Positions 45,754 through 62,770 of a stretch of 64,000 nucleotides of DNA are shown piece by piece. This DNA is from Cellulosimicrobium protaetiae (GTDB lineage Bacteria; Actinomycetota; Actinomycetes; Actinomycetales; Cellulomonadaceae). The DNA is taken from positions 868,001-932,000 of the forward strand of contig NZ_CP052757.1 in assembly GCF_009708005.2 (NCBI RefSeq), in the 5' to 3' direction. A program made the position numbers and the translations under genes. How positions within the stretch are numbered: position 1 is the stretch's first letter; the number at the start of each line of letters is the position of its first letter. Under the pieces are notes generated by a model. That model saw nothing but the letters and a program-made list of their open reading frames with translations, was not told the DNA's origin and did not search any database.

Positions 45754-48700
45754 TCAGCCGGTCAGGGCGGTGCGGATGACGTCGGCGTCGGGCTCAAGCA
45801 CCGTCCACCCCTCGGCGTCGAGCTGAGTGAGCGTCGCGGCGTCCAGAGCGTCCGTCTGCACGGTCACCCTACGGTCCGGCCACGACAACGACAGGGGGAC
45901 ACCGTCTCCGAACTCGTCGCCGATGGTCGGGGCTTCCACGCCGTCGGCCGCGAGCGGCAGGAGCTGCTGGAGCAGCTCCCGTTCGACGGCGGTCGCGATC
46001 GTGTGAGCCGTCTGCCAGGCCGGGTGGGCTTCGAGGAGGGCGGCCAGCGCGGACTCGACCCGACTGCTCTCCTCCGCCTCTGCGGCGGACGGCAAGGTAG
46101 CGACGCCAGCCGCGAGCATCGAACGCGTGGCGATCCGCAGCGGCAGGTCCCCACGGAAGTTCAGCAGGTTGGACAGGCGCAGCCACTCACGCCAGGACTC
46201 CTTGTGCTCCTGACCCAGCGCCTCGGGGTCGTCGTCGAGGACGACGGCGATCTCCAGGGCGTCCCCCACGAACGGCCGAACACCAAGGCCCAGGGATCCC
46301 TGGCGCCCCGTGGCGGCGAACCGAGGGCCGGCAGGCGGTGTCTGGCCGTCGATCGCGGCGAGCGAGAGATGTGCGAGGCTCACGTCGCTCGAGTGCATCG
46401 CCGGGGACAGCTTCATCCCGGCAAGTGCCGGCAGCCACCTGGAGAGCATGGCGCGTGCGGGCCGGTCGGGTCGCTCGACCCAGTCCAGCAGGAGGTCGAG
46501 CGGCGGTCGCGAGACCAGCCCGACGGTCGCGGGGGAGAGCTTGTCCTTCGCCTCGCTCAGCACGGCTGCGGGTGCCTGCGGGTGCAACCAGGGCACGGGG
46601 ACGGCGGAAGCGTGCGTGCGGTCGAGGTCCTCCCACGTGAAAGCGAGCACCTGGTACCCGAGGTCGCGCAGGGCCTGGCGCTTGGTGGCGTCGTCGGCGA
46701 GGCGGTTGACGGCGGGGGAGGCGTGGAACTGCCAGCCGTCGGTGTAGATGGCGGTGGGCGGGACGTCGGGCCGGTCGCTGCGCAGGACGAAGTCGGGCTT
46801 GGTCCCGGCGTCGTGGACGAGCACCTGTGGTTCGAGCCGCCAGTGTGCGCCGCCGGGCATGGTGACCGACCAGGTGTTGCCCTGGGGCCCCGGCTTCTCC
46901 GTGATGGTCGCGCCCATCTTCTCCAGGCGCTCGCGGAGCACCTTGCGGAAGAGCAGCTCGATGTGGGACTCGGGGTCGGTGACGTCGGGCTCGTCCACCG
47001 TGACCGTCCACGGGCTCGTCGCGGGGACCTCGTCGTCGCCGACCTGCGACGTGCCGAGCAGGATCGACCTGAGGTGGCGCGCGGCCGTGGCCCGGGAGAC
47101 GTGCCCGACCTGGTGCGGCGCGGCGTGCGGCAGGAGGCACCGGTCGCACGCGAGCCTGCCGTCGTGCTGGCACGCGCAGTCCTCGAGGTGTCGCCAGGCG
47201 TCGCGCAGCATGGTCCACACGGCGTCGTGGTCGGAGAGCTCGGCGAGGTAGCCGGTGCCGCCGCGCACGACGTCGTGCAGGAGCAGGGCCTCGGCCGGGC
47301 TGCCCGCCGCGGGGCTGGGGTCGACGACGTCCGTGACCTCCAGGTGGTCCGGGTCGCCGCCGATCCGGATTCGCAGCGCGAGGAGCAGGGCTGCACGCAA
47401 CGACGGGAGCGAGAAGTCGTCCCCCAGCGTCACGGACTCGGGGAGCCGCAGCACCAGACCCTCGGTGGTGAGCGACCGCGACAGGGCGACGGTGCGGACA
47501 CTCTCGTCTCGTGCCCGTCGCAGGGGGCACCAGGGGCGGTGCTCCGACGCGCGGTTGGCACCGGTGGAGGTGTCGAGCTTGCCGCACCGTTCGCAGACGC
47601 GGAACAGCGCGACGTCGTGGGGCTGCCCTGCGAGCTCGAGGGTCGCGCCCTGTGCGGAGGACCGGCCGAGGTTGAGCCAGCGGATGGTCATCTCGCGCTG
47701 GTAGCGGGCGCCGAAGCCGTAGCCCTCGACGAACCACTGCCGGGTGACGGCGGCGGGGTCGACGTCGGCGAGGGTGCGGATGGTGAACCGCTCGCGCTCG
47801 CGTTCGTCGCTCCGGTCGTCGATTGTCGCCTCCTCGCGCCGGATCACGGACGAGACGCGCTTGAGCTCGACGACCTCGATCTGCTGGGCCACGTCCGCGA
47901 GGGCCGGACTGCCGCAGCGCGGGCAGGCCGCGAGCGCGGCCGTGCCGCCCGGTGCCGAGGCGTCCGTGACGTCGTGCGTGAACCCGCAGTGGGGGCAGCA
48001 GGCCCAGGTGCGGACGGCGTCGTCGTCCCGCCCGAGGTCGAGCGCGTCGACCGCGATGGCGTACCCGCGTGCGTAGAAGGTGGAGCCGGGCGCGAAGTCG
48101 CGCAATGCCTGGGCGGATCCGCGGCCCAGCTCCATGAGCTCGGTGCGGAACTCCTGGGAGTCGGGGTCCACCCAGGACAGGGAGACTTCGAGCGCGACGG
48201 AGTCGTCGAGCAGCGTGTAGTTGGGGAGCAGCCCGTGCTCCTCGAGCACGCCTACCCAGTGCACGGTCGCGGCCCGCGCCTGCTGGTACTGGGTGAGCTT
48301 GAGCGCGGCCTGCGCGGTGCGCAGCGCGCGTTCGTCGTCGCTGGTCGCGGCGGGAGAGTCGGCCTTGATGCGCAGCCCGTCCGCGGCGTTGATCGCGGTC
48401 TGGATCTCCTTCTCGCGGTGCGCGAGGGTCTCCATCCGTCCCCGCCACGCGAGGGAGGCGGTGTGCGCGCGCCGGGCGAGCTCGGACGGGACGCTCTCGC
48501 CCGATGCGGTCACCGTGGGCAGCGCCCACGCGCGCAACGTCTCCTTCACCGGGTCGGAGACGTCGACGAAACCGCACAGGAACCGGTTGAGAAGGGCGGG
48601 CCCCTCCGCCTCGGACAGCGCGACGAGCTCTCCGAGGAACGAGCCCGGTTCGCTGCTGCCGAGCGCGTCGGACGCGGTGCGCGGGTGCGGTGCGTCGGCA

Positions 48701-51700
48701 CGGCGGGCGAACTCGTCGGCGACGGAGGCCACGTACTGGCGGCGCAGGATCTCCTCGGCGTCGAGGTAGGTGGCGGGCGGTCGTACGGCACCGTTGATGA
48801 CGCTGCCGGGGTCGGCGAAGCGTGGCAGCTGGTCGCCGCGGGCAGTGACGAACGCGATCGCGAGGGCGTTGCCGGTCGCGCGCCCGGCGCGGCCGACGCG
48901 CTGCAGGTACGACGCGACGGTGCGGGGCAGGGAGGACAGCATGACGGCGGACAGCTCGCCGATGTCGATCCCCATCTCGAGCGTCGGCGTGGCGACGAGG
49001 ACGTTCGGGGCGTCCGGCGCGGGCACCTCCTCCTTGAACGCCGTCTCGTACGCGAGGCGGACCTCGTCCTCCAGCATGCTGGTGTGCTCGCGTGCGACGA
49101 CGCGCGCCGGGTCGGAGTCCTCGTACATCCGGCGGTAGAAGTTGTCCGCGACGGCGTGCCGGCGCAGACGCCCGGTGCAGCGGGCGACCAGGCACGGTGC
49201 CCCGTCGAGCTGGTCGACGACGGTGGCCGTTGCCGGGACGGTGGATCCGCAGTCGCTGCACTCGAGGCACAGGGCACCGTCGCGGAGGGCGTCCGTCGTC
49301 GCGACCTGGACGATGACGTTCCGGGGCGCGAGGTGGTACGTCGTGGCGCCGGACGACGAGAGGAGACCGGCGACGACGTCGAGCCGCGCGAGGTGCTTCA
49401 TCAGCAGGCGCGCGAGCGTCGCCGCCTCCGTCTTGTCGACGTGCAGGCACTTGGCCGTCCAGGCCGCGTACCAGCCGCGTGCGGAGCCGACGGGTTCCAG
49501 GTCGTCCCCGGCGGCCTTCGCGCCGGCCCCGGTGGTGACGGAGCCGCCGACGCGCGGGTAGCCGGGTGCGCTGGCTCCCTTGCCGAAGCCAGGCATCCCT
49601 TCGTGACGTCGTCGGCCACCGGTGATCCACCACCGGTTGCCGTCCTCCTGCCTGAACGTGTGGAACCACTCGTGCTCGATCGCCCCCCGGGTACGCATGT
49701 GCTCGAGGACACCGCGGACCCAGGCGCGCAGCTCCGCGTCGGTGGGGGCGAAGCCGTCGAGCACCTCCTGCCGGTCGACCTCGTCGAGCGCGGCGCGTGC
49801 CGCGCCGAGCAGGGGGCGTGGGTCGACGCGCACCTCGGCGACGAGCGTCCCCGTGGCCTCGAGCGTCCGGCCGACGGCGGAGCGCAGACCGTGCTCGAGG
49901 AGGACGTCGAGCAGGAGCCGACGCCGCACCCGGTCCCGGACCTTGTCCTGGCCCTTGGCCCGCGGGCCCTTTTTCCAGAACGGCGCGAACGGCTCACGCT
50001 CCGCGAGGTCTGGCGGGAGCAGCCGGTACCGCTTCTTCCCGTCGTCGCCGGCGTCGGCGATCATCTTGTCCACAAGGGTGGCGAGGTCGACCGGGTCGTC
50101 GCCGACGGCGTGGCGCATCACCGCACGCAGGGTGAGCGCGTGCGAACGGGACTGGACGAACCCGGCGCGGTGCGCGGCGTCCTGCACCGAGTCGGTGAAG
50201 ACGAGGGCCCGCTTCTCCCGCGGGTCGAGCCCGGCCGTGCCGAACAGGCTGGACAGCGACACGGACAGCAGCGTCGCGATCGCGGACCCGAGGAACCGGA
50301 TGCCGTCCTTCTGCCCGCACGACGGGCAGTCGTCGTCCTTCGAGGGCTTCGCGCCGACGTCGTCCAGCGGGTGCACGAGGACGGGAAGGACCCCGGCGTC
50401 CGTGTCGTCCCCCTCCGGCAGGGAGGAGACGAGGCGGCGCTGGCCGACGAGGAACCACCGCAGTCCCTCGACCTTCTCGCCGCCCTCGGCCCGCTCGCCC
50501 TCGGCGGGGGCGTGGACGAGGGCCCGGAACCGGTCGTCGCCGCGAAGGTGCCGGCCGCGGATGTCGTCGTCGTGCGTGTCCAGGTCCGTGCCGGTCGGGG
50601 CGAGGGCGACGCCCCAGCCCGAGCGGCCGCAGTGGCGGCAGTACAGGGCGGGGAACGCGTGCGTCCCGCCGCCCGGGCCGTCCTCGTCCGCGTCCTGCAC
50701 GACGACGCCGTCGTCCTGCCAGCGGAACTGTGCCACTCCCGCGGTGGTCCTGTTGAGCCGGGTCAGCTCGCGCGTCCACAGGTGGACGTCGACGGACAGA
50801 GCGCCGCGACCGGTCCTCGCGCGCAGGTGCGACAAGGCGGAGAGCAGCGCGGTGAGGGTCTGTTCCGCGCGGACCGGCCACGACGGGTCGGACGACGGCG
50901 GGAACGCATCCCGGACGAGCACCGACAGGTCCACCGCCTGTGCGGCGAGCCGGACCAGACCACGTTCCCCGGTGACGATCGGGTGCGCCTTCGCGAGCCA
51001 GAGGAGGGCGTCGTGCGAGTCGCCCGAGAGATCGGGTCGGTCGGACGTCGGGTCGACGAACCCGGCGTCTCCGGTGTCCGTGCGGAACAGGTTGCGCAGC
51101 ACCGTGCGCGTGAGGGCGCCGACGTCGGTCACGTCGACCGCGGCGAGGTCGTCGAGGAGGAGCCGAGCGACGACGTCGTCCACCTCCACCGCCCGCAACC
51201 CGCGGGCAGCGGCGCGCTCCACGGCGTCGCCCACCCACTCGTCGAGCGGCAGGCGCGACTCCGTGACGACCGAGTCGGGCCCGAACGCCTCGCCGAACAC
51301 CGTCCGCGCGAAGTCGAGCATCGCCGACGGATCGCCCTTGTCGCCCAACGTCGCGGACGTCGCGACGGGTGTGACGATCCCCAGCGGGCGCGCGACGTCC
51401 GCGTCCGTGAGTCCCGCCGCCACGCGGTCGGCGGGATCCGTCGGCCAGTACGACTTCAGCGCGAGGCCGAGCCGCCGGATCAGCATCGCGACGTCCGTGC
51501 CCTGCGCGCCGTCGTACGTGTGGAACTCGTCGAGCACCAGGTACTGCAGGGACCGGGCGCTCGCGGACCACAGCTTTGCGTCGTCCCGACGCAGCAGCAG
51601 CTGGTCGAGCATCTTGTAGTTCGTCAGGAGGATGTCGGGCGGCGAGTCCCGGATCACCGGGCGATCCGTGATCAGCCCAGCCGTCGTCACCTTCGTCCGC

Positions 51701-52251
51701 GTGGGGCCCTCCTCGCCCGTGTACAGAGCCGCCGTGATGCCGCGCAGCTCCGGGTTCGACGGCGACGTCAGCAGCTCGGTGAGGCGCTTGGCCTGGTCGT
51801 TGGCGAGCGCGTTCATCGGGTAGAGGATGACCGCCTTGATACCGCCGAGCCCCGCCTTCTTCGCGCGCAGCACGTGGTCGAGGATCGGGTAGAGGAACGA
51901 CTCTGTCTTGCCCGAGCCCGTGCCCGTCGTGACCAAGGTGGGCTGCGGGCGGCGCAGCCGACCGTCTGGGGCGAGCGAGGAGAGCCGCCGGAACGCGTCC
52001 GCCTGGTGCCCGTACGGCTGCGGGTACCCGCCGTACCAGTCCAACGACTCACGCCAGCCGGGCTCGGCCGGCCGAAAAGGCAGCCGGAGTCGCACGTACG
52101 GACCGCGGAACAGACCGGTGCTCGGTGACCGGAGAAAATCCTCCAACGACGCCCGCGTGCTCGCGTCGGCGAGGGCGAACGTCGTGCCCAGGTACTCCAG
52201 CAGCGCAGCGCGCAAGGACTCGGCCTGGGACACGGGGAGGAGCTCACTCAC
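45754..52251 (-). CDS. Giant DEAD/DEAH helicase with DUF1998/zinc motifs and PD-(D/E)XK-like nuclease (DruE-like)
   Basis: 2165 residues, GTG start. Helicase motifs: TGTGSGKTES (about 109-118), VLDEFHTYDGAQGTDV, VATSATLGDKG, VATPTLEMGIDIGELSAV, YLQRVGRAGRATG. Repeated Cys pairs (CRHCGRSGW, CPSCGQ, CLECSDCG, CPHCGF, CPRCG, CERCGK, and CACQHDGRLACDRC near residue 1700) mark DUF1998/MZB-type zinc regions. Residues about 1755-1860 look like a Vsr/DUF559-type PD-(D/E)XK nuclease (ESHIELLFRKVLRERLEKMG, KPDFVL, YTDGWQFH, KRQALRDLGYQVLAFTWEDL). The last 90 residues (IGDEFGDGVPLSLSWPDRRV ... GWTVLEPDADVIRTAL) recur in the DUF262 protein at 60005. Size and layout resemble Druantia DruE. Probable antiviral effector. 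Confidence 0.85.
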   Translation of the reverse strand: MSELLPVSQAESLRAALLEYLGTTFALADASTRASLEDFLRSPSTGLFRGPYVRLRLPFRPAEPGWRESLDWYGGYPQPYGHQADAFRRLSSLAPDGRLRRPQPTLVTTGTGSGKTESFLYPILDHVLRAKKAGLGGIKAVILYPMNALANDQAKRLTELLTSPSNPELRGITAALYTGEEGPTRTKVTTAGLITDRPVIRDSPPDILLTNYKMLDQLLLRRDDAKLWSASARSLQYLVLDEFHTYDGAQGTDVAMLIRRLGLALKSYWPTDPADRVAAGLTDADVARPLGIVTPVATSATLGDKGDPSAMLDFARTVFGEAFGPDSVVTESRLPLDEWVGDAVERAAARGLRAVEVDDVVARLLLDDLAAVDVTDVGALTRTVLRNLFRTDTGDAGFVDPTSDRPDLSGDSHDALLWLAKAHPIVTGERGLVRLAAQAVDLSVLVRDAFPPSSDPSWPVRAEQTLTALLSALSHLRARTGRGALSVDVHLWTRELTRLNRTTAGVAQFRWQDDGVVVQDADEDGPGGGTHAFPALYCRHCGRSGWGVALAPTGTDLDTHDDDIRGRHLRGDDRFRALVHAPAEGERAEGGEKVEGLRWFLVGQRRLVSSLPEGDDTDAGVLPVLVHPLDDVGAKPSKDDDCPSCGQKDGIRFLGSAIATLLSVSLSSLFGTAGLDPREKRALVFTDSVQDAAHRAGFVQSRSHALTLRAVMRHAVGDDPVDLATLVDKMIADAGDDGKKRYRLLPPDLAEREPFAPFWKKGPRAKGQDKVRDRVRRRLLLDVLLEHGLRSAVGRTLEATGTLVAEVRVDPRPLLGAARAALDEVDRQEVLDGFAPTDAELRAWVRGVLEHMRTRGAIEHEWFHTFRQEDGNRWWITGGRRRHEGMPGFGKGASAPGYPRVGGSVTTGAGAKAAGDDLEPVGSARGWYAAWTAKCLHVDKTEAATLARLLMKHLARLDVVAGLLSSSGATTYHLAPRNVIVQVATTDALRDGALCLECSDCGSTVPATATVVDQLDGAPCLVARCTGRLRRHAVADNFYRRMYEDSDPARVVAREHTSMLEDEVRLAYETAFKEEVPAPDAPNVLVATPTLEMGIDIGELSAVMLSSLPRTVASYLQRVGRAGRATGNALAIAFVTARGDQLPRFADPGSVINGAVRPPATYLDAEEILRRQYVASVADEFARRADAPHPRTASDALGSSEPGSFLGELVALSEAEGPALLNRFLCGFVDVSDPVKETLRAWALPTVTASGESVPSELARRAHTASLAWRGRMETLAHREKEIQTAINAADGLRIKADSPAATSDDERALRTAQAALKLTQYQQARAATVHWVGVLEEHGLLPNYTLLDDSVALEVSLSWVDPDSQEFRTELMELGRGSAQALRDFAPGSTFYARGYAIAVDALDLGRDDDAVRTWACCPHCGFTHDVTDASAPGGTAALAACPRCGSPALADVAQQIEVVELKRVSSVIRREEATIDDRSDERERERFTIRTLADVDPAAVTRQWFVEGYGFGARYQREMTIRWLNLGRSSAQGATLELAGQPHDVALFRVCERCGKLDTSTGANRASEHRPWCPLRRARDESVRTVALSRSLTTEGLVLRLPESVTLGDDFSLPSLRAALLLALRIRIGGDPDHLEVTDVVDPSPAAGSPAEALLLHDVVRGGTGYLAELSDHDAVWTMLRDAWRHLEDCACQHDGRLACDRCLLPHAAPHQVGHVSRATAARHLRSILLGTSQVGDDEVPATSPWTVTVDEPDVTDPESHIELLFRKVLRERLEKMGATITEKPGPQGNTWSVTMPGGAHWRLEPQVLVHDAGTKPDFVLRSDRPDVPPTAIYTDGWQFHASPAVNRLADDATKRQALRDLGYQVLAFTWEDLDRTHASAVPVPWLHPQAPAAVLSEAKDKLSPATVGLVSRPPLDLLLDWVERPDRPARAMLSRWLPALAGMKLSPAMHSSDVSLAHLSLAAIDGQTPPAGPRFAATGRQGSLGLGVRPFVGDALEIAVVLDDDPEALGQEHKESWREWLRLSNLLNFRGDLPLRIATRSMLAAGVATLPSAAEAEESSRVESALAALLEAHPAWQTAHTIATAVERELLQQLLPLAADGVEAPTIGDEFGDGVPLSLSWPDRRVTVQTDALDAATLTQLDAEGWTVLEPDADVIRTALTG

Positions 52252-52429
52252 GGAGGCATGCTGTCAGATTCTCGGTCATCGCGAGTCGTTCCTTCGCGGA
52301 GGCGATCGCATGCCTGCTCGGGCGGAGCGGCTAGAGAGCTGTTGCCTGCACTTCTGCGTTCGGTCCGGGCGCGTGGATTTCACCCGTTCGGGGAGAATGT
52401 GCTGCGCGGTTGACCGGTAGCCTCCGGGC

Positions 52430-53689
52430 ATGAGTGAGAGCGACATCGCCGATGAGTTCCTCCGCCAGTGGCAGGAAGCCCAGGAGCAGTACGCGGAGAT
52501 GGGCGATCCCAGCGCTGCTCGCGCCCACGAAGCGTTTCGCCTCGACGACGTCGCGGACCTGAGCGAGGACGACGCTGCTGAACACCTTGCGGACGGGTGG
52601 GAGAAGCTCCATGAAGTCGTCCCGCGCTTCAACCTCGCCGTTCTGGGCAACACCGGGGCGGGCAAGTCCAGCCTCGTCAACGCGATCTTCGGGGAGGTCC
52701 GTGCCGAGGTCGGCGTCGGTGCTCCCGTGACCCAGGAGGTCAAGCCTCATGACAACGAGGCCGGCACACTTCGACTCTACGACTTCCCCGGTTTCGAACT
52801 GGGCAAACATGGCCGCGACCCAGTCTCGATCATCAAGGATGATCTGACCGCGATCCAGAAGGGGCCCGAGGAAGACCGTATCCATCTCGCATGGTTCTGC
52901 TGGGACCAGGGGACACGCCGAGTCGAGGATGCGCACCTCAAGGCGATCGCGGAGCTCGCGTCGCGGAACATCCCCGTCATCGGTGTGGTGACCAAGGTGC
53001 GCGACGACGAGATGGAGGACATCCTCGAGTTCGGCCGGTGGATCTGGAACAACGTCGACGGCCTGTGGATGCGTCACGACGGGAAGCCGGCCCTCTGCTT
53101 CACCCGTTCGAGGACTCCGTCCGCGGGGTTGCTCAAGCTCCTGGACGAGACGCGTGCCGCCGCTGATGCGACGTTTCGAGACGCGATCGACGCCGCGCAG
53201 AAGCTGGATGCGGAGAAGAAGCGTCGCGCGGCGCGCGGGCTGATCGCTGCCGCAGCTGCCTCGGCCGCAGGCGCAGCAGCCATCCCGGTGCCCGTCGCCA
53301 CCGCCGCCGTCCTGGCGCCGATCCAACTCGGCATGATGGGGCAGGTCGCCCGCATGTACGGGCTGAGCCTCAAGGGCGTGCTCGGTGGAGGTACGGCGCT
53401 CTTCCAGCTGGCTCTGCAGCTGACGGGCCGTGCCGCGGCCGCGAGCCTTGTCAAGGCCATCCCGGGCGTGGGATCGGTGATCAATGCAGCTGTCGCGAGC
53501 GCCTGGACCTACGCGGCCGGTGAGGCGTGGCTCTTCCTGTGCGACCGAATCGCGTCGGGAAAGATCGACCCCGACAAGATCGGGCCTCTGCTCAGCTACC
53601 TGAAGCCCATCATCATGGTCGTGCTCGAGTCGAAGCTCAAGGGCATGAGATCAACGGCTTCGGGGGCCTCCGCTGCGAGCTCGAAATAG
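52430..53689 (+). CDS. P-loop GTPase with hydrophobic C-terminal region (Era/YcjX/DUF697-like)
   Basis: 419 residues from ATG 52430. G1 motif GNTGAGKSSLVNAIFG (73-88), G3 LYDFPGFELG, G4 VVTKVRDDEM. Residues about 275-405 are Ala/Gly-rich hydrophobic segments (GLIAAAAASAAGAAAIPVPV, AVLAPIQLGMMGQVARMYG, GVGSVINAAVASAWTYAAGE) as in membrane-associated GTPases with a DUF697 tail. It probably cycles on or off the inner membrane. It lies divergently from the giant helicase and converges on the TAC module; a membrane-stress or defence role is inferred only from context. Confidence 0.82.
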   Translation: MSESDIADEFLRQWQEAQEQYAEMGDPSAARAHEAFRLDDVADLSEDDAAEHLADGWEKLHEVVPRFNLAVLGNTGAGKSSLVNAIFGEVRAEVGVGAPVTQEVKPHDNEAGTLRLYDFPGFELGKHGRDPVSIIKDDLTAIQKGPEEDRIHLAWFCWDQGTRRVEDAHLKAIAELASRNIPVIGVVTKVRDDEMEDILEFGRWIWNNVDGLWMRHDGKPALCFTRSRTPSAGLLKLLDETRAAADATFRDAIDAAQKLDAEKKRRAARGLIAAAAASAAGAAAIPVPVATAAVLAPIQLGMMGQVARMYGLSLKGVLGGGTALFQLALQLTGRAAAASLVKAIPGVGSVINAAVASAWTYAAGEAWLFLCDRIASGKIDPDKIGPLLSYLKPIIMVVLESKLKGMRSTASGASAASSK

Positions 53690-53700
53690 CTCGAAGCGCC

Positions 53701-54159
53701 TCACTCGCCAGCCATGCGGTCTGCTTCCACCGCCGCGAGGTCCAAGGACATCGGCAGGCCAAGGCTCTTGCCGGCGACGGGTGGGATGAGGTTGATCAGT
53801 TCTGCTCGGGCGTGCGGCCAGAGCGCGCTGACGAGCGATCCGTGGTCGTCCAGCTCGACATCCGGTGAGAGTGCCACCGCGTAGGCAGCGTGCACTCCGA
53901 ACACGCCACGGTCGGGGGAGTCGTCCTCGACGCGCTGGTCGCGGACGTCTACCCGGTAGTCGACCCGCCAGAGCACGGTCTGCTCGATCGGGTTGATCTC
54001 CATCCCGATCGAGATGTCGAGGGTCTCGGGGTCCGGGCCGATCCGACGCCGTTCGGCACCGAGGGCAAGCGTGAAGATGGCTTCGATGCCACCGAAGCCG
54101 CGTTCAGACAGTCGCACGTGTCGCGCCTGCGTAGGCCGCCAGGTCAGTGCCGCGCGCAT
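53701..54159 (-). CDS. SecB-like chaperone of a toxin-antitoxin-chaperone module
   Basis: 152 residues from ATG 54159; a GTG at 54117 is a shorter alternative. A beta-rich core (ISIGMEINPIEQTVLWRVDY, VFGVHAAYAVALSPDVELDD) is followed by the SecB-type helical segment LWPHARAELINLIPPVAGKS and LGLPMSLD. It overlaps the XRE antitoxin gene by 56 bp in another frame. In TAC systems such as Mycobacterium tuberculosis Rv1955-1957, a SecB-like protein protects the antitoxin from aggregation and proteolysis. Gene order toxin, antitoxin, chaperone is the same here. Identity rests on pattern and order. Confidence 0.72.
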   Translation of the reverse strand: MRAALTWRPTQARHVRLSERGFGGIEAIFTLALGAERRRIGPDPETLDISIGMEINPIEQTVLWRVDYRVDVRDQRVEDDSPDRGVFGVHAAYAVALSPDVELDDHGSLVSALWPHARAELINLIPPVAGKSLGLPMSLDLAAVEADRMAGE

Positions 54160-54610: not shown

Positions 54611-54621
54611 TGCACACCTCC

Positions 54622-54639
54622 TATTACCTTTGAGTAATA
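54622..54639 (-). promoter_or_regulatory. AT-rich palindrome between toxin and antitoxin genes
   Basis: TATTAC (54622-54627) and GTAATA (54634-54639) with a 6-base spacer, 12 bp before the antitoxin start. In a 70+% GC genome it is a strong candidate for antitoxin binding and for an internal promoter giving surplus antitoxin. Confidence 0.55.
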
Positions 54640-54662
54640 CTCCCACCCGGTGGCTGCTGTGC

Positions 54663-55157
54663 CTAGACCTGTTGCCGTGTGATCTCCCACGCTTCTGCTC
54701 GGGATCGCGCCTCGAGTGCGTGCCGCGTCTGCTCGTCGAGACCGATGCGACCCGGTGACTTCGAAGCGACCTTCAGACCGAGGAGCAGGCGGTCGTGCCG
54801 CGACGGCTCGATGAAGTAGAACCGCACGTGGCGTCTCCCGTTCGAGGCGCCGGTCCGGGTGGTGAGCCGGAGCTCCAGGACGCAGCCCGTGGTCTCCATC
54901 AGGTCCACGTCACCCGAGCGATCACGTCCCGTCCCGCGGACGAACTCGAGCTCGCCGCTCTCGGCACGGTTGAGCAGGTGTGTCACCTCGGCGAAGAGCA
55001 CTGCCCTGTCGACCGGTGCGCATGCCGTGATGACGTCGCGCAGCTCAGCGATAGGGGTCGGCAAGGAAGGGTCGCCGACGTGCTTCCATGAGCCGCCGAC
55101 ACCTGGTCCGTCGCCGGAGCGACAGGAACGCGCGCCTGGAGGTTGGGCGATCTGCAT
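54663..55157 (-). CDS. RelE/HigB-like toxin of TAC module
   Basis: 164 residues from ATG 55157; TAGGTT six bases upstream may be a -10 for a leaderless start. The C-terminal 85 residues fit the HigB/RelE pattern: CVLELRLTTRTGASNGRRHV, RFYFIEPSRHDRLLLGLKVA, SKSPGR, HALEARSRAEAWE. Such toxins cleave mRNA on the ribosome. The N-terminal 30 residues may be overcalled. As first gene of the toxin-antitoxin-chaperone set it would be neutralised by the XRE protein. Confidence 0.7.
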   Translation of the reverse strand: MQIAQPPGARSCRSGDGPGVGGSWKHVGDPSLPTPIAELRDVITACAPVDRAVLFAEVTHLLNRAESGELEFVRGTGRDRSGDVDLMETTGCVLELRLTTRTGASNGRRHVRFYFIEPSRHDRLLLGLKVASKSPGRIGLDEQTRHALEARSRAEAWEITRQQV

Positions 55158-55248
55158 GGAGCGAACCTAGACCTGCCCACCGACAGGCTCTTGGCGGTCT
55201 GACCAGCACAGAAGCACGCACATGAACCACGTCGCACGTGGTGCATCG

Positions 55249-56022
55249 TCACGGTGTGTCAAGGTGCCCGGCATTCGAGGCTCGTGCCAGGATCGCCAGC
55301 GAACAGTCGTCCTTCGTCCGGTTCCGGATGGTGGTGTCGACGACCCGCCGCAGCTGCTTCTTGAAGGTGGGGTTCCGTACCTGAGCGGTGGGAGCCCTGC
55401 CCACAACCGAGATGAGCGTGGAGCAGGCTCGTGCGAGCGTCGCCGAGCGCGAGTTGTACAGGCTGGCTCCGGTGCCGTCACTCATCACGATGAAACCAGA
55501 GATCTCGTCAGTCTCACCGCGAAACAGGCGCGTGCTCGTGGCCGCTCCTCGCGTGGTGACGAAGGTCGTCTGGTTCGCGAACTCGGAGTTGTCGGGTGAG
55601 GACATCAACCGCAGCGTGCCGTCCTTCACATATCCGATCACACCGTCCCCGGTGTGCACGGCGATGAACCTGTCGCCCGAGACGGCCACCGCGAGAAACG
55701 TGGCTGCGAGGTCCGCGACCTGGCAGCCAAGGCGGTCCGCGGTTCGTGCGAGTACGCCCAGGAGGTGCTGGGAGACCGCCTCCTTGACGGCACGGCCGTC
55801 GTCGTTCGCGATGAGCTCCTCGAAGTTGTCGACGAGGAAGCGAGAACCTGCATCGGTGATCGCCTGTGCCCCGTACTCCGACCGGGTCGCCGTTCCCGCA
55901 CCGTCGGACAGGCAGATCGCCTGAACCCCTCCGCGCGACAGGTACTGGGTGCGGTCCTGGCACACGGTCCCGTCCTCGGCGTGACCCCGCCCCCGCACTT
56001 GGTGGTGGAACTCTTTGAACAA
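55249..56022 (-). CDS. PP2C-family protein phosphatase (TerY-P set)
   Basis: 257 residues from TTG 56022, with GGAG seven bases upstream and the vWA stop directly abutting. PP2C metal motifs: CLSDGAGTATRSEYGAQAIT, HTGDGVIGYVKDG, VMSDGTGASLYN and RTKDDCSLAILA. It would dephosphorylate Ser/Thr, countering the kinase encoded two genes upstream. PP2C, vWA and Ser/Thr kinase together are the TerY-P triad known from phage-defence and tellurite-associated loci. Confidence 0.85.
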   Translation of the reverse strand: MFKEFHHQVRGRGHAEDGTVCQDRTQYLSRGGVQAICLSDGAGTATRSEYGAQAITDAGSRFLVDNFEELIANDDGRAVKEAVSQHLLGVLARTADRLGCQVADLAATFLAVAVSGDRFIAVHTGDGVIGYVKDGTLRLMSSPDNSEFANQTTFVTTRGAATSTRLFRGETDEISGFIVMSDGTGASLYNSRSATLARACSTLISVVGRAPTAQVRNPTFKKQLRRVVDTTIRNRTKDDCSLAILARASNAGHLDTP

Positions 56023-56706
56023 CTACAGCTCCGCCCATCCGGCGAGACCCGCGAGGTCCAGCTTGACGGTGTCGCCAGGGCTCGACTGAGAGACGCGTGC
56101 CACGGACTTGGAGAGCCACTCGAAGAACTCCTTGAAGTGGAGACCCTGGAGGCGGAGTGGCGGACGCGTCGGGCTGAACCGTGCCAGGACGTCCATGTCG
56201 GCGCCTGCCCCGATTCCGATCGCGAAGACGGTGAGCTTCTTGTTCCCGGCGAGGTCCGTCACGCGCTGCACTGCGCGATCGAGCGCGGCGCGGTCACCGT
56301 TCGGTCCACCGTCGGTCATGAGGACGAGCCATGGCTGGTAGTAGAGGACGCCGTTGTCCGAGTAGAGCCGCTTGCGCGCATCGAGCGTGTCCAGGGCGAG
56401 GTTGACCCCTTCACCCATGTAGGTGCGACCTGTCGGCGCGATGGTCGTGATCCGCTGAAGACGTTCGACGCTCGCGAACTCCTGGATGACCTTCGCCCCC
56501 GAGTTGAACTCGACGATGCACACCTCGGCGGCGTCGTGGGCGTCGTCGTCCTCATCGATCGCGTCGTAGAACTGGTTGACACCGGCCACGAGCTCGCGGA
56601 TCGGGTCACCGGACATCGAGCCGCTGGTGTCGATGCAGATGGCGACCGGCACGCGGGGCGTCGGGTTCTCGACCAGGTCCTCTGTCTCAATGTTGAGCTG
56701 CGCCAC
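56023..56706 (-). CDS. TerY-like vWA domain protein
   Basis: 227 residues from GTG 56706, chosen because GAGGGAGA lies six bases upstream; a longer frame would overlap the kinase gene by 100 bp. MIDAS residues are intact: DTSGSMSG at 26-33, Thr in PTGRTYMGEG, Asp in LVLMTDGGPNGDR. The opening QLNIETEDLVENPTPRVPV is typical of TerY-like proteins. It overlaps the kinase end by 20 bp and touches the phosphatase start, so the three are one translation unit. Confidence 0.85.
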   Translation of the reverse strand: MAQLNIETEDLVENPTPRVPVAICIDTSGSMSGDPIRELVAGVNQFYDAIDEDDDAHDAAEVCIVEFNSGAKVIQEFASVERLQRITTIAPTGRTYMGEGVNLALDTLDARKRLYSDNGVLYYQPWLVLMTDGGPNGDRAALDRAVQRVTDLAGNKKLTVFAIGIGAGADMDVLARFSPTRPPLRLQGLHFKEFFEWLSKSVARVSQSSPGDTVKLDLAGLAGWAEL

Positions 56707-59365
56707 GTACGTCTCCCTCGGTCGGGTTGCCACCGGGTCGTCGAACTTCCGACCCGATGGGATCACGGTCTTGGTAGGGCTCGTCACCGAACCCGGATCG
56801 CTTGAGCGTCCTGACGACGCGGTTCAGCAGGTGGAGGACGGGGGTCGTGAACCACGGCTTCTCCCCGACATGAGCTACCAGAGGCGGGCTCCACCGGTAG
56901 TAGCAGCGGACGAACAGTCGTCCAGGAGCGGTCGTTCGGAGGCGAGTGTCCCTCCAGCGCCTCAGGACCCAGACCTCGGGGCAGTCGTATGAGCCGTAGA
57001 CGGCTGTCGCCACGAAGCACCCGCCGGAGCCCTCTGCCTTGCCGTCTGTCGACGGCTTCGGGGCCCCGGTGCCCGGACGCGACTGGACCGGTACGCACGC
57101 AGGGGCGTCGCGCCGGTGGGCAGTCGGTACGGGCTTGTTGTTCGTCTGATGCCACTCGACGTTGCCGTGGGTGATGAACGTCTTGCCGCAACGTGTGCAC
57201 AGGCGGGTCGGATCGATGGTCCGTCCCCTCTTCTGCTGCTCCGCTCGGCGAGCGGCGTCCGCGGCCCGACAGCGGGCACAACGGCCGGAAGAGAGCGTCG
57301 ACCTCTCGGACTCGAGGCCGCAGCCCTTGCAGGCGATCGTTTGACACGCGTTGCACCGACCGCGGACGAGGTACTGCTTGCGGATGCCGCGGCCGCAGGA
57401 CGCGCAGGTGCCCTGGTTGCAGTCGTAGCACCGCCCGTCCTTGAGCGACGATCGGCGCCGTCCGCAATCGGCGCACGCAGGTTGATGCTCCTTGCACTTG
57501 AGGCAGAGGGAGGGGGTCGCGTAGGACTTGGTGGTGTCGCTCCAGATGCCGGCCATCGACGCCCCGCACCCGGAGCACTCGTACAGGGGTGTGTCCGGAG
57601 ACATCGCCTTGAACCGCGTCGGATAGACGTCGTTCGAGAGCGGATCGAAGTTCGCGGGGCTGCCGAGATACCTCCTGTAACCACGGAAGGCCGTGAGCCA
57701 CTCCTGATCCGTGGGGCGGTCGTCGTAGCGGTCGCCGTCACGGTGGAAGGTGTGCCAGAACAGTCCCTTGACGCCGACTTGCAGGTGGCTCCACATGAAG
57801 CGCCAGTTCCCTGCGGGTTGGTCCTGGTTCGAGTTCTCCTTGTACTGGAAGGCAAAGTTGCCCTCCTTGATGAGTCTGACGATGTCGCCGTCCGAGCCGG
57901 ACCTGGCGTACGGGAACTGCCCCGTGATGAGGATCATGAACAGCATCGTCGCGACGGCGAAGCGCTCGTCCTCGATGGTGCGCAGGAAGTCCGGATAGCG
58001 TCTCCCGATCACCGATGGAGCGCTGAACATCTCGGTTCCGACGGGGCACGGGAATCCCTCGAGCTGCCACGAGTCGGCGTCGATGACCCAGACGTCCTTG
58101 TTGGCGTCGACGAGGAGGTTCTTGGGGTTGATGTCGCCGAGGAGGATGTTCTGGGAGTGCAGGTAGTCAACCTTCTCCAGGAAGGAGATCGCGACGTCGA
58201 CCAGATCCGACTTGGTCCAGCCGGGATACTCGTTCCTGAACCGTCTCGGGTTGAACAGGGACTTGGAGAACTCTCGCCCGCTCGCTCTCGGCATGAGGTA
58301 GCCGACGAACGCGCCGTCCAGGTCGGTGACGAACGCCTGGGGGAAGCAGATTCCCGGTTCGTCCAGCTGCCGACCGACGAGCAGCCGGATCTTCTCCTCG
58401 CGATGGACCGTGATGTGGTCGCCGTCGAAGATCTTCACGACGTGGGTGTCAGACACTGCGTAGACGCTGCCCTCGCCTCCCTCACCGAGCCTGCCGAGCA
58501 GCGTGCACTCGTACGTGTTCCCCGGCGACACCACGCGGACATGGTCGCCCTCGCTCGGGATGTCGCGGACGGGCAGCACCTCGTCGGGACCCTGGTACGC
58601 GGCGTCGGCAGCGAAGGGTGAGGGTCGGGGCCGCGGTGGGACGTCGCTGCTGGTGCCGTGGGACGTTCTCGGGCGACCGTTCCGCGAGTCCTCTTCCGCA
58701 GACAGGTCGAACGCGTCGCCGTACGCGAGGAGCACGGACTTCAGCGATGCCGCCTCGAGGTGGTCCTTGCGGGTTCCCCCACCAGTCTCCAGGGCGGTGC
58801 TGATGCGGCGGAGCTTGCGCTGCCCGCGCCCGTAGAGGACCCGAGGGTCTTCGCACTCCATCAGACCGTCGGGGGTGAGACTCCCCGCGCGCACCGGGTG
58901 TGTGCTGCTACGGCCCAGAAGGTTGATCCGGAGGAGCAGCGTGACATCGTTCGTGATCAGGAACATCGCGTACTTCGGCGAGTACGCCTCGAACAGATCG
59001 ACGAACAGGTCGTCGGCGTAGGGGTTGGACCCGTCGCCGAGATCGTTGCGGACGAGTCCGGCGGCCTCCGCCGAACGGAGGAAGACGAGCGCGTTCTTCG
59101 CCTTCCGGGTTGCAGCGGCGCCGGGCTCGTCGAGATCGGCGGTGCTTGCGCGGCTCTTCGCTGTGAGCTCGTCGATGACCTTCGTGGGGACGATCACCGG
59201 CCGGTCGTGCTGCAGGATCGCTGGTGCGATCCGCTCGAGGAGATTCCGGAGGCCGCCCTCGCGTCGTGGGTCGGTGTCCATGAAGACGTTGGTGTCGACG
59301 AAGAGCCGTGACTCTGCCCCCACGAGCTCGACGGGGTCGATCCGCGTGGCCTCGGGACTAGCCAT
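56687..59365 (-). CDS. PIN domain - Ser/Thr kinase - zinc ribbon - CFI-box fusion protein
   Basis: 892 residues from ATG 59365, overlapping the stop of the upstream gene. Residues about 18-150: PIN nuclease (LFVDTNVFMDTD, VPTKVIDELT, FLITNDVTLLL). Residues about 285-560: kinase with G-loop GEGGEGSVY (294-302), Lys in VVKIFDG, GDINPKNLLVD (410-420, catalytic Asp) and DAD (429-431) in place of DFG. Residues about 600-720: Cys-pair zinc ribbons (CSGCG, CLKCK, CADCGRRR, CYDCNQ, CASCG, CNACQ, CKGCG, CARC, then CTRCGKTF). A C-terminal CFVATAVYGSYDCPEV and FVRCYYRWSP segment is the CFI-box. It combines an RNA- or DNA-cleaving head with a signalling kinase. Confidence 0.87.
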   Translation of the reverse strand: MASPEATRIDPVELVGAESRLFVDTNVFMDTDPRREGGLRNLLERIAPAILQHDRPVIVPTKVIDELTAKSRASTADLDEPGAAATRKAKNALVFLRSAEAAGLVRNDLGDGSNPYADDLFVDLFEAYSPKYAMFLITNDVTLLLRINLLGRSSTHPVRAGSLTPDGLMECEDPRVLYGRGQRKLRRISTALETGGGTRKDHLEAASLKSVLLAYGDAFDLSAEEDSRNGRPRTSHGTSSDVPPRPRPSPFAADAAYQGPDEVLPVRDIPSEGDHVRVVSPGNTYECTLLGRLGEGGEGSVYAVSDTHVVKIFDGDHITVHREEKIRLLVGRQLDEPGICFPQAFVTDLDGAFVGYLMPRASGREFSKSLFNPRRFRNEYPGWTKSDLVDVAISFLEKVDYLHSQNILLGDINPKNLLVDANKDVWVIDADSWQLEGFPCPVGTEMFSAPSVIGRRYPDFLRTIEDERFAVATMLFMILITGQFPYARSGSDGDIVRLIKEGNFAFQYKENSNQDQPAGNWRFMWSHLQVGVKGLFWHTFHRDGDRYDDRPTDQEWLTAFRGYRRYLGSPANFDPLSNDVYPTRFKAMSPDTPLYECSGCGASMAGIWSDTTKSYATPSLCLKCKEHQPACADCGRRRSSLKDGRCYDCNQGTCASCGRGIRKQYLVRGRCNACQTIACKGCGLESERSTLSSGRCARCRAADAARRAEQQKRGRTIDPTRLCTRCGKTFITHGNVEWHQTNNKPVPTAHRRDAPACVPVQSRPGTGAPKPSTDGKAEGSGGCFVATAVYGSYDCPEVWVLRRWRDTRLRTTAPGRLFVRCYYRWSPPLVAHVGEKPWFTTPVLHLLNRVVRTLKRSGFGDEPYQDRDPIGSEVRRPGGNPTEGDVRGAAQH

Positions 59366-59888
59366 CGAACTCGACACCACTCATGAACTGAGGCGCGGAG
59401 GATTCTTGTCGGGATGCGATCCCCTTGGAGAACCGGACGTTGCTCATGAACCGGACGCCGAGGACCGCGGCCTCCGACCACTCGGGATTTCTTACGACGG
59501 TCGACTCGAACGTAATGCGGGGTTCTGTCGGCGCGGACTCGTCCGGGACGACCGTGATCTCGATGGACTCGACGGGGTCGTCATCGGTCGTGGAGCGGCT
59601 CGACAAGTCCGGACCCTGGGCCGCGCCGATGAGCGCGTCGAGCTCGTTCGGCACCTGCAGGAGATCCGCGAGGAGCCGCGCGGTGGAAGTCGGGAAGGCC
59701 GGAGCGTCCCAGGAGCGCGGGGCGGAGGTGCTCACGCCCGACGAACCGCGGACCGATCGGCTGATCGTCTGGCTCGCTCGGCCTGCCGAGTAGTACTTGC
59801 CGTCGTAGTTCCCGTGCGCTTTCAGCGCTGCGATCTGGCGGCCTGTAGCGGGGCGCGACCAGCTGCTCGTGACGGACCGACGTGCCAT
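59358..59888 (-). CDS. Hypothetical protein with small N-terminal helical motif, heads TerY-P operon
   Basis: 176 residues from ATG 59888, RBS GAAGGAG. The N-terminus has SRPATGRQIAALKAHGNYDG with a following KYYSAGRASQTI, like small ATxKQ-type helical domains that recur at ends of nucleic-acid proteins. The rest (ITVVPDESAPTEPRITFEST, VRNPEWSEAAVLGVRFMSNV) is unrecognised. The end overlaps the kinase start by 8 bp, so it belongs to the same operon. It may be an adaptor for the kinase. Confidence 0.6.
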   Translation of the reverse strand: MARRSVTSSWSRPATGRQIAALKAHGNYDGKYYSAGRASQTISRSVRGSSGVSTSAPRSWDAPAFPTSTARLLADLLQVPNELDALIGAAQGPDLSSRSTTDDDPVESIEITVVPDESAPTEPRITFESTVVRNPEWSEAAVLGVRFMSNVRFSKGIASRQESSAPQFMSGVEFDG

Positions 59889-60004
59889 GTGGCTCCTTCT
59901 TCCCGGACGCGCCCCAGCCTCGTCCACCGACGACGGGTCGAACCTACACACGACGCATTCCGATATGAGAGGTGCGAGACGATTTTCACCCGCTCATGAA
60001 GCCG

Positions 60005-62770
60005 TCATCTCGACGTGGCGGCGAGAACGGCCGCCTTGACCGCCCGCTCCACGGCGTCGGCGTCGAACGGGACCAGGACCCATCCGGACGACTCGATCAG
60101 ATCCCGGTCGGCGGCGGCGAGGGTGTCGACGGTGGCCGTCAGCCTGAGATTCGGCCACGAGAGCGACACGGGAATGCCCTCGACGAGCTCGTCGCCGACC
60201 GCCGGTACGGGCATGCCGTCGATCTCGGAAAGGACGCGGAGGAGTGCTGCCTCGTCTTCCGTGCCGGATCGGATCGCCTCGGTCCAGTCGTCGGAGAACT
60301 CGGGCAGCTCCGCGCGCTCCTCCTCCACCGCATTGATGACGGCCGCGAAGGTCTCGGCCGTCGACTCGTCCATCCAGTACGAGCTCGGGTTGCCTTCGAC
60401 GAAGCGGGACGGCATGCGGTGCCCGCGCTTCGCCGCCGCACGGTCCGTGAACGCGAGCGCGCCGGCCAGGGATCGGACGCTCTCCTCTCCCACCCGTTCG
60501 GCGAGGACGGGCGCGGGGACCGGCTCGGGAGCGGCGGCGACCAGTGCGGCGAAGATGCTCCGTGCCCGGTCGCCGATCTCCGCCCAGTACTCCGACGCGT
60601 CGTCGAGGTCGGTCTCGGGGTCCCAGTGGCGGGCGGCCTCGTCGGGTGCCGACGGCGCCTCTGGTCGAAACTGCTGCCGGACGTCCGCGAGCCGACGCCC
60701 GTCCTCCAGCGACCAGAACGTCCAGCCGTTGGTGACCCCGCCGCGCACGTAGCGGCCGGCGCGTGACGGGGTGTCGAACGTCTGATCGTCCACGACGATC
60801 AGTCCGGCCTCGGTCACGACGGCGGTCTTGGCGCCCCAGGTCCCGGACCGCGGCCGCAGGATGGTGCCGGCTGCGATCATCCCGGCATGGACGAGCTCGG
60901 CCACCGTGACGCTCACCTGACCGCTCGTCCGGGCGTCCGTGACCTCACCGGTATGGGCGTCTGGTACCGGCCACACCGCGAGCATCCCGTCGAGGAGGAT
61001 CTGGGTCCGGACGTCGATGTGCTCCTCGTCCCAGCCGGTCTCGCTCATCGTCAGCAGGCGGCTGTTCAGCAGCAGGACGTCGTGCTGCGCGATCTTCGCG
61101 CGCTTGCCGCCGCGGCCGAGCCACGCGGCGTTCGACGCGGACGAGTTGAGCTTGCCCGTCAGGAGGGTGAGGTTGCCCAGCCGGTGCACGTGGGCGTTGC
61201 GCGCGATCTCGTCCTGAAGGTTGTCGACGGGCCACTTCCTCTCCCAGGACTGCGGGAGCAGGTGCTCGATCGGGTACGCGCCGCGTGGTACCTGCTGCGC
61301 GTCGTACTCGCCTCGGAGCTGGTTCTCGGCGGCCTCGAGGAACATCCGCAGCCGGGTCCGCGAGAAGCGTCGGTAGGCTCGCTCCTCCTCGAACACCTGG
61401 CGGATCTCGGCGTCGCCCGGCCAGTAGGTGGAGGTGACGCGGAAGGACCGCAGGGTGTCCTCGACGCGCTCGACGAGACCCTCCGCCGGGACGCCTCGCA
61501 TCGCTCGGAGGACCTCGGCGACGGCGCGGCCCAGGGATGTCGAGGTGAGCCGCAGCAGGGTGCGACGCACGAGCCAGCTCTCGACGAGGCGCACGACGCC
61601 GAACACGACGTCGTCGGGCAGGGTGTCGTCCGCCGGGTGCAGCCTGAGCAGGATCGGAGTCAGCGCCGCCGATCCGATCGCGCGCGACCGGTACATGCAC
61701 ATCTCGACCGGGTCGAGGCTCCGGCGGGTGTCCCCGACGGCGCGGGTCCAGCGTTCGTAGAGCTCGGCTTGCGCGCGCATGTCCATGAGGACGTCGAGCA
61801 TCGGGCGCCCGGCCTCGTGCTCCATGTAGTGCTTGAACCGCGTGAAGGTCGCCCTCGGGCGCACTTCCTCGGCGACCGTCGCCGCGAGCCACTGGTTGAT
61901 GAACAGGGCCGCGTGCGTCGACGTCGCACGCCCGACGGTGATCTCGGAGTCCCAGAACGCGGAGTCGAAGGGCCACACGTCCCGGTACGCCGATCGTGCG
62001 TCCGCACCCTCCTTCGCGAGGCGCTGGAAGACGAGGTTCTTGACCAGGTCGGCGGCCGTCAGGGGAGTACCGCGAGCGTTGAGGGTTTCGAAGATGGCCT
62101 GGGAGTCCTCGTTCGCCTGCAGGTCGATGACGACGAACTGGATGCCGTTCGACAGCACGCCGGCCAGGAGCTCTGCCCGCTGCGTGACGTCGTCCGGCCG
62201 TGCCCCGGCACTGACGTCGCCCTCCCCGTCCAGCCACTCGCCGACGCAGCGGGCGAAGTACGCGTGCGCCGCCGTGATGCGGGACGTCGAGTGCGGCAGG
62301 TCGTCGTGGGTGACCGGCGGTTCCGCGTTCATGACGTCGTCGAACGCCGCACGGTCGCGGTTGGTGTGCCGCACCTTGAGGCGCTGCTCCTCGTCGTCCA
62401 CGAACGCGGGATTGTTGTGCGTCAGGGCTTCGAGCTGGGTGCTGTACCGGTCGAGCCCGCGCTCCTCGAAGGCGGCCCCGGCGGCGTCCATGAGGAGCTG
62501 AAGAGTGGTCAGCCGCTGCTGGCCGTCGATGACGTTTCGCACGATGAGGTTCCCCATCGCGGACTCCTCCGCCTGGACGACCACGGCCCCCAGAAAGTGG
62601 CTCGCCCCGATCGAGCCGCTGTGCCGGATCGACGCGATCCGGACCACGTCCTGCCACAGCGGCTCCCACTGGTCCTCCTCCTCCCACACGTACGGGCGCT
62701 GGAAGAGAGGGACCACGATCTGCTGCGGCTGGATGAAGATCTGCTGCGGGGTCCGGACGTTCGTTTCCAC
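60005..62770 (-). CDS. DUF262-DUF1524-RAMA restriction-like protein with shared C-terminal domain
   Basis: 921 residues from GTG 62770, RBS GAGGAACG. N-terminal DUF262 (ParB/GmrS-like): VPLFQRPYVWEEEDQWEPLW and VIDGQQRLTTLQLLMDAAG; FETLNARGTPLTAADLVKNL follows. DUF1524 HNH-type nuclease near 495-545 (YPIEHLLPQSWE, HVHRLGNLTLLTGKLN). Residues about 640-695 are a RAMA domain (TWGAKTAVVTEAGLIVVDDQ, FDTPSRAGRYVRGGVTNGW), seen in proteins linked to modified-DNA restriction. The last 90 residues (VGDELVEGIPVSLSWPNLRL ... SSGWVLVPFDADAVERAV) match the C-terminus of the giant helicase. Type IV-like restriction of modified DNA is the likely role. Confidence 0.87.
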   Translation of the reverse strand: METNVRTPQQIFIQPQQIVVPLFQRPYVWEEEDQWEPLWQDVVRIASIRHSGSIGASHFLGAVVVQAEESAMGNLIVRNVIDGQQRLTTLQLLMDAAGAAFEERGLDRYSTQLEALTHNNPAFVDDEEQRLKVRHTNRDRAAFDDVMNAEPPVTHDDLPHSTSRITAAHAYFARCVGEWLDGEGDVSAGARPDDVTQRAELLAGVLSNGIQFVVIDLQANEDSQAIFETLNARGTPLTAADLVKNLVFQRLAKEGADARSAYRDVWPFDSAFWDSEITVGRATSTHAALFINQWLAATVAEEVRPRATFTRFKHYMEHEAGRPMLDVLMDMRAQAELYERWTRAVGDTRRSLDPVEMCMYRSRAIGSAALTPILLRLHPADDTLPDDVVFGVVRLVESWLVRRTLLRLTSTSLGRAVAEVLRAMRGVPAEGLVERVEDTLRSFRVTSTYWPGDAEIRQVFEEERAYRRFSRTRLRMFLEAAENQLRGEYDAQQVPRGAYPIEHLLPQSWERKWPVDNLQDEIARNAHVHRLGNLTLLTGKLNSSASNAAWLGRGGKRAKIAQHDVLLLNSRLLTMSETGWDEEHIDVRTQILLDGMLAVWPVPDAHTGEVTDARTSGQVSVTVAELVHAGMIAAGTILRPRSGTWGAKTAVVTEAGLIVVDDQTFDTPSRAGRYVRGGVTNGWTFWSLEDGRRLADVRQQFRPEAPSAPDEAARHWDPETDLDDASEYWAEIGDRARSIFAALVAAAPEPVPAPVLAERVGEESVRSLAGALAFTDRAAAKRGHRMPSRFVEGNPSSYWMDESTAETFAAVINAVEEERAELPEFSDDWTEAIRSGTEDEAALLRVLSEIDGMPVPAVGDELVEGIPVSLSWPNLRLTATVDTLAAADRDLIESSGWVLVPFDADAVERAVKAAVLAATSR

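Follow-up and report, generated by a model that had tools for sequence, protein, structure and literature searches.

A 64,000-nucleotide stretch of the Cellulosimicrobium protaetiae genome (contig NZ_CP052757.1, positions 868,001 to 932,000; the whole stretch is termed the window) encodes a large helicase and a DUF262 protein that are otherwise unrelated and that end in similar sequences. What is this C-terminal tail, and why do such different proteins carry it? An earlier note, based on the sequence alone, had proposed a common C-terminal domain. The overall explanation favored here, with a probability of roughly 0.48, is that the tail is a dead Vsr-type nuclease domain that serves as an assembly or recruitment module across several kinds of defense proteins. 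Both host genes are on the minus strand; genomes and sequence stretches are cited by G and L numbers. The two hosts and their tails are:

45754..52251, minus strand: ArmC-like YprA/DruE-type helicase, 2165 amino acids, GTG start (Pfam DEAD, Helicase_C and MZB)
45757..46059, minus strand: helicase tail, inactivated Vsr/DUF559-type C-terminal domain, about residues 2065-2165
60005..62770, minus strand: DUF262 (GmrSD-type)-RAMA-DUF6416 protein, 921 amino acids (Pfam)
60008..60328, minus strand: tail of the DUF262 protein, same domain, about residues 815-921

The proposal of a common domain is borne out, and the protein lengths and tail motifs that the note quoted are correct. In a BLASTP comparison of the last 110 residues with all window frames of at least 30 amino acids, the two tails match at 37% over 99 amino acids (E 2e-16); the next-best match has an E value of 0.43 or 1.1, depending on the query. 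The pair has a Smith-Waterman score of 164, whereas 2000 shuffles of the tail average 32 and never exceed 67; when the whole proteins are aligned, the tails again form the best local match (164, compared with at most 75 in 200 shuffles). The Glu-rich helix said to precede the strands is found as a Glu-rich stretch in both sequences and is helical in both predicted models, and both predicted folds match the same solved nucleases. A third tail is present in the same genome outside the window (G000:C1:958429-958764), 30 kb past the DUF262 tail. It forms the C-terminal part of a protein of about 216 amino acids that follows a DUF262 protein (L006:10283-12079; L002:1108-1758); the remainder of this protein has no Pfam match.

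The tail is very probably a shrunken Vsr/DUF559-type nuclease domain that lacks the catalytic acids. Its alpha-beta-beta-beta-alpha-beta core and its profile similarity are those of the Vsr/DUF559-type PD-(D/E)xK fold. It has the helix and strand order of the DUF559/Vsr-type nucleases (3hrl, 3r3p, PvuRts1I, AbaSI and Vsr) and shares with them a WP..xVAV strand pair and a GWxV strand; unlike these enzymes, it is about 11 residues shorter, is nearly always acidic and has no catalytic D and E-x-D. With the catalytic columns assigned through a tail-DUF559 alignment, all three acids are kept in none of 65 tails, as opposed to 12 of 12 DUF559 controls, and an active nuclease was rejected on this ground. 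No relevant family was found in a Pfam scan of 29 tails (E<=10), no match in a comparison of the tail profile with PDB sequences and nothing at E<=1e-3 in a Foldseek search with the helicase tail. The helicase also has a separate segment that resembles such nucleases, delimited by eye:

46597..46974, minus strand: helicase segment with intact-looking PDF...YTDGWQFH...D..KR...TW.DL, about residues 1760-1885

From its motifs, together with a passage of the ARMADA type II paper, we take this segment to be Vsr/DUF559-like. That paper describes an inactivated Vsr domain on ArmC of ARMADA type II, located after a predicted active Vsr domain (PMC12458937). The window tail agrees with that inactivated domain in protein family, place, fold class and inactivation.

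The tail is widespread on defense proteins. At E<=1e-4, 30 tails are found in 23 of 200 genomes of the family. Fourteen are on ArmC, four on DrmB, four on DUF262-RAMA proteins, two on a DEAD/MZB helicase of about 1670 amino acids and two on a Schlafen-group-3 helicase-domain protein with a GIY-YIG-like start (the start read by eye); ZorD, an additional GmrSD protein, a DUF6416 protein and the protein of about 216 amino acids have one each. Hosts were identified by Pfam and PADLOC for representatives and by BLAST grouping for the others. Genes of relatives are from a codon-bias caller that is unreliable at lower GC, and in such genomes open frames were read directly. Counted tails all finish at most 13 residues before the stop. 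The possibility that the tail is a ubiquitous fragment of unlinked proteins does not hold, as 26 of the 30 are on defense-type families, and tail-bearing proteins gather in defense loci.

A search of an order sample of 396 genomes with a tail-less ArmC fragment gives 39 ArmC genes in 38 genomes. The tail is present on 36 of the 39. Of the other three, the gene in G471 runs off its contig, and those in G312 and G457, the two most divergent, have none. In a phylum sample, any match is seen in 10 of 396 genomes, and tails are on ArmC (G760, G831 and G932) or on the helicase of about 1670 amino acids (G817). Among the matches inspected, six are DUF559-like (L107, L108, L110, L112, L113 and L115) and two are tails on helicases (L109 and L111). 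Weak order and phylum matches in frames of 209-589 amino acids are excluded from the tail counts; those in G206, G224, G240, G255, G291, G309, G320, G356 and G480 were judged by frame length only, and G119 is excluded as an antisense-like frame. As judged from sequence, the tail is a near-constant end of ArmC and is also C-terminal on unrelated helicase and nuclease subunits, in two phyla. PMC12458937 describes the domain for YprA helicases and its main text is silent on GmrSD and ZorD, whereas at least six other kinds of protein carry it here. No paper was found to report it on DUF262/GmrSD enzymes, on DrmB of DISARM, on ZorD of Zorya I or on a helicase beside an Hma gene. No title or abstract was found that describes the domain on DUF262, DrmB or ZorD, and the main text of PMC11890865 does not contain the word 'Vsr'.

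Some arrangements of tailed genes differ from that in the window. The ArmC of G535 (L189:5610-12815) bears two tails in tandem. The tailed helicase of about 1670 amino acids lies beside a protein of 1098-1109 amino acids and an SNF2 helicase (L053 and L054); in L053 the SNF2 protein carries a NOV_C domain, and HmaC (309 bits) is present as well.

Tails appear to have changed hosts. A weakly resolved tree built from 95 columns of 66 tails nests the tail of the 216-amino-acid protein within the ArmC clade (98/96). It pairs the ZorD tail of G014 with the GmrSD tail of the same genome (100/94), and this pair lies beside the DUF262-RAMA tails of G123 and G077 (98/87). From these placements the domain seems to have moved among unrelated proteins, and some tails look copied from host to host. 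Tail replacement within the DUF262-RAMA or DrmB families is not demonstrated, since a single clade is not rejected by the approximately unbiased (AU) test, either for the DUF262-RAMA tails as a whole (p 0.33) or for those on DrmB (p 0.20). Movement of this kind might be passive, the tail being a recombination passenger among neighboring defense genes with no common function; its patchy presence on DUF262 and DrmB proteins and the nested third tail, which is like a recent copy, fit such shuffling. Near-constancy on ArmC across diverged sequences, together with W and G columns that are nearly invariant (both W columns are present in ZorE as well), points rather to selection, and passive shuffling has poor odds.

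The range of the tail extends to Escherichia coli. The tailed SNF2 protein of G014 is ZorD (1048 bits) of a Zorya I set, with ZorA, ZorB and ZorC alongside, and its tail is 13 kb from an ArmC tail and 20 kb from a GmrSD-protein tail. Because of this ZorD, the island of E. coli ATCC 8739 that holds ARMADA, Druantia and Zorya genes (L206) was examined. A profile of 66 tails matches only ArmC (i-E, the independent E value, 9.8e-6) and ZorE (i-E 6.6e-5) among nine island proteins, E. coli DruE and DruH being without it; an older profile of 29 tails is weak on both (0.0045 and 0.068). Applied to five named stretches (1053 frames), the 66-tail profile ranks highest Pseudomonas putida ZorE, E. coli ArmC, Vibrio ZorE and E. 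coli ZorE (i-E 4.8e-5 to 0.0077). Aligned with each other, the ArmC and ZorE tails of E. coli score 99, a value that none of 5000 shuffles reaches; the other seven island proteins score 26-41, and the Vibrio and P. putida ZorE 48 and 61 with the same ArmC tail. The best matches of ZorE tails are one another (103-137). Against actinobacterial tails, the match is 95.5% (P 1.4e-8) for the three ZorE extensions and 0.1% for the ZorE bodies. Over 5426 E. coli genomes the totals, which are separate counts of genome sets not matched one to one, are 518 for the ArmC body, 518 for the ArmC tail, 580 for the ZorE body, 575 for the ZorE tail and 528 for DruE.

A C-terminal 'nuclease-like' extension not assignable to a nuclease family has been described on 53 of 59 Druantia-associated ZorE leaves (PMC13192584). 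To judge by its place, the tail, which is the C-terminal 90 or so residues of ATCC 8739 ZorE, is probably this extension. The authors of that study read its conserved residues as a catalytic-like pocket, whereas here it is an inactivated Vsr-type tail in common with ArmC. Tailed ZorE is also encoded by plasmid-borne Zorya II-like sets of Vibrio (L207:15898-17025) and P. putida (L208:15711-16799). In the plasmid stretches covered, whose gene tables are incomplete, these have no ARMADA or Druantia genes listed nearby, and the ZorE tail as a marker of ARMADA neighbors only was accordingly rejected. A tblastn comparison of the helicase and ZorD tails with plasmids gave no match.

How might a dead nuclease domain serve such hosts? 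The net charge is negative in 64 of 66 tails, with a mean of -10.9 per 90 amino acids, compared with a mean of +2.2 for DUF559 excerpts. Conservation is highest at W, P, G, E and hydrophobic columns; basic residues are not among them. A conserved non-catalytic fold, strong negative charge, C-terminal place and spread over subunits that act on phage DNA are the grounds for regarding the tail as a contact module. It would descend from, or share ancestry with, Vsr/DUF559-type PD-(D/E)xK nucleases and would act as an exchangeable, non-catalytic assembly or recruitment module through protein contacts. Where DNA is being processed, it would gather effector subunits, either with one another or at a shared partner; in the window it would keep the DUF262-RAMA type IV nuclease near the ARMADA helicase. 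The recruitment mechanism itself is advanced tentatively, at a little under even odds. Effector-associated domains and adaptor modules of bacterial conflict systems are small domains common to unrelated effectors and have been proposed to unite them. Unlike those domains, which have other folds, the tail is an inactivated nuclease placed at the very end of helicase and nuclease subunits. DruE has been described as forming higher-order assemblies via its C-terminal domains, where mutations abolish defense and synergy (PMC13192584), and a DruH-DruE contact has also been described (PMC13316683). The DruE domains are of PLD type, unlike the tail, and offer a precedent by analogy only.

The tail could instead be a non-catalytic domain that binds DNA or a DNA structure, its carriers acting on the same phage DNA intermediates. 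Nucleases of its fold class cut DNA, the two tails of GIY/Schlafen type carry a slight positive charge, and with no common protein partner needed, genomes with a single tail are readily accommodated. Druantia-Zorya synergy has likewise been argued to operate via shared DNA intermediates, with no stable complex reported (PMC13192584). The prevailing negative charge and the conserved columns speak against DNA binding, which is possible but rather unlikely. Strong negative charge would suit an autoinhibitory acidic flap, a DNA mimic that lies over the DNA path of the enzyme carrying it until infection. This too accounts for single-tail genomes, and neutralizing an acidic C-terminal patch of DruE raises activity (PMC13192584). 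The hosts are structurally unrelated, so that one shape would have to suit many DNA paths, and there is no sign here of tail-host contact; such a flap is improbable.

Tails and ARMADA genes tend to occur together. Within the family, 4 of 13 genomes with a non-ArmC tail have a tailed ArmC, compared with 14 of 200 overall (hypergeometric p 0.008), and in the order sample all 6 genomes with a non-ArmC tail have ArmC, compared with 38 of 396 (p 5e-7); these p values were computed post hoc on samples that contain the genome of the window, and they ignore kinship. DrmB is found in 37 of 386 genomes (30 DrmB loci inspected): four are tailed, all with ArmC, and ArmC is present in 5 of the 33 others. 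Counted tails number two or more in seven genomes (G000, G118, G103, G014, G222, G292 and G535), and in each of these two tails on different proteins are at most about 36 kb apart; G224, G240 and G889, with weak DUF559-like matches only, are outside this count. In three genomes a DISARM-like set (UvrD, DrmA and tailed DrmB) directly adjoins the ARMADA II operon (L186, L187 and L188-L189), and two of the three sets have SNF2.

Several observations weigh against simple docking. No ArmC was found in six tailed genomes, where the hosts are DrmB (G064, G068 and G095), DUF262 (G077 and G123) or the helicase of about 1670 amino acids (G088), in a check that left out G031, G037 and G111, family genomes with a non-ArmC tail alone; in view of this, the suggestion of the earlier note that both enzymes could dock onto one partner stays a conjecture. 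Six DUF262-like proteins near armC have no tail (G103, G084, G098, G164, G552 and G082). The annotated neighbors of the Vibrio and P. putida tailed ZorE, on plasmid stretches with incomplete gene tables, include no helicase like ArmC or DruE. E. coli DruE and DruH, which take part in the published synergies, have no tail, as stated. All told, the tail is enriched near ARMADA and is not tied to it.

A wider version of the recruitment idea would make the tail a tag that couples whole systems, by which ARMADA, Zorya, DISARM, Hma and type IV restriction effectors would be drawn into joint complexes or to the same processed phage DNA. If true, it predicts a direct ARMADA-Zorya link, through ArmC and ZorE in E. 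coli and ArmC and ZorD in actinobacteria. In E. coli, ARMADA-Druantia synergy is reported in one preprint and Druantia-Zorya synergy in PMC13192584. As these synergies involve Druantia III, whose proteins have no tail, the odds of recruitment in general are slightly lowered, and coupling of whole systems is unlikely.

The system to which the window helicase belongs is not an undescribed one, as had been supposed. Four neighboring genes match armA, armB, armC and armD of E. coli ATCC 8739, which makes the helicase the ArmC of ARMADA type II as defined by Bell et al. (2025 preprint, PMC12458937). The other three are:

43409..45688, minus strand: ArmD-like UvrD/GajB-type helicase, 759 amino acids (Pfam UvrD; PADLOC NERD+UvrD 2.5e-32)
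62857..64000, minus strand: ArmB-like PglX-type methyltransferase, C-terminal part (full 1648 amino acids at L005:2857-7803)
L005:7803-10844, beyond the window: armA, DrmD-like SNF2 helicase (BrxHII/RapA-like), 1013 amino acids (PADLOC DrmD 327 bits)

Matches to the E. coli proteins are 36% over 860 amino acids for ArmA, 33% over 1448 for ArmB (PADLOC IIG 1395 bits, DrmMI 194 bits), 28% over 1459 plus 44% over 310 for ArmC and 28% over 601 for an ArmD fragment (E 2.7e-61). A RelE-like domain at the ArmD N-terminus is a feature of ARMADA type II; Pfam gives no RelE match there in the ArmD-like protein, but its alignment to E. coli ArmD starts at residue 9. The nearest PADLOC family of the helicase is DruE3 (E 1.8e-81); Druantia III was nevertheless rejected, as the adjacent genes are ARMADA genes and accessories, and no Druantia partner genes (DruH, DruF/DruM or others) adjoin the helicase. 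A separate Druantia type II-like set is located in the same island, starting about 14-16 kb past the window (L005:17582-19000 and L006:2-10022; genome C1 ~945.6-956 kb), with DruE2 (1464 bits), DruF2 (745 bits) and a cytosine methyltransferase (by eye). Divergent from armA is a 2091-amino-acid DUF4011/AAA/MTES_1575 protein (L005:11153-17428; PADLOC PDC-S37 795 bits), homologues of which adjoin the tailed DUF262 genes of G123 and G077.

The armA-armB-armC-armD order is kept, and about 10 kb of accessory genes separate armB from armC, which are adjacent in many relatives. The DUF262-RAMA protein is one of these accessories and a predicted type IV nuclease: its Pfam E values are 9.6e-34 (GmrSD_N), 3.2e-22 (GmrSD_C), 1.1e-13 (RAMA) and 1.7e-10 (DUF6416), and GmrSD_N and GmrSD_C, as in GmrSD type IV restriction, are both over the curated cut-off in one protein. 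In the relative G118 a DUF262 gene is in the same place, with a single small called gene (182 amino acids) between it and armC. The other accessories in the window are:

56687..59380, minus strand: protein kinase with CFI-box C-terminus, between armB and armC
56023..56787, minus strand: von Willebrand A (VWA) protein (Pfam)
55249..56022, minus strand: PP2C phosphatase (Pfam)
52430..53689, plus strand, opposite to the others: GTPase (Pfam)

The kinase, VWA and PP2C phosphatase row at 55249-59380 sits inside the ARMADA operon and is similar to the TerY-P triad.

The finding bears on how co-located defense systems cooperate, and it proposes an identity for the ZorE extension. E. coli ArmC, in the same island as ZorE, bears the same domain, and in actinobacteria a like pattern recurs with Zorya I, DISARM and GmrSD enzymes. 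The tail is thus a candidate part for bringing proteins of several anti-phage systems together.
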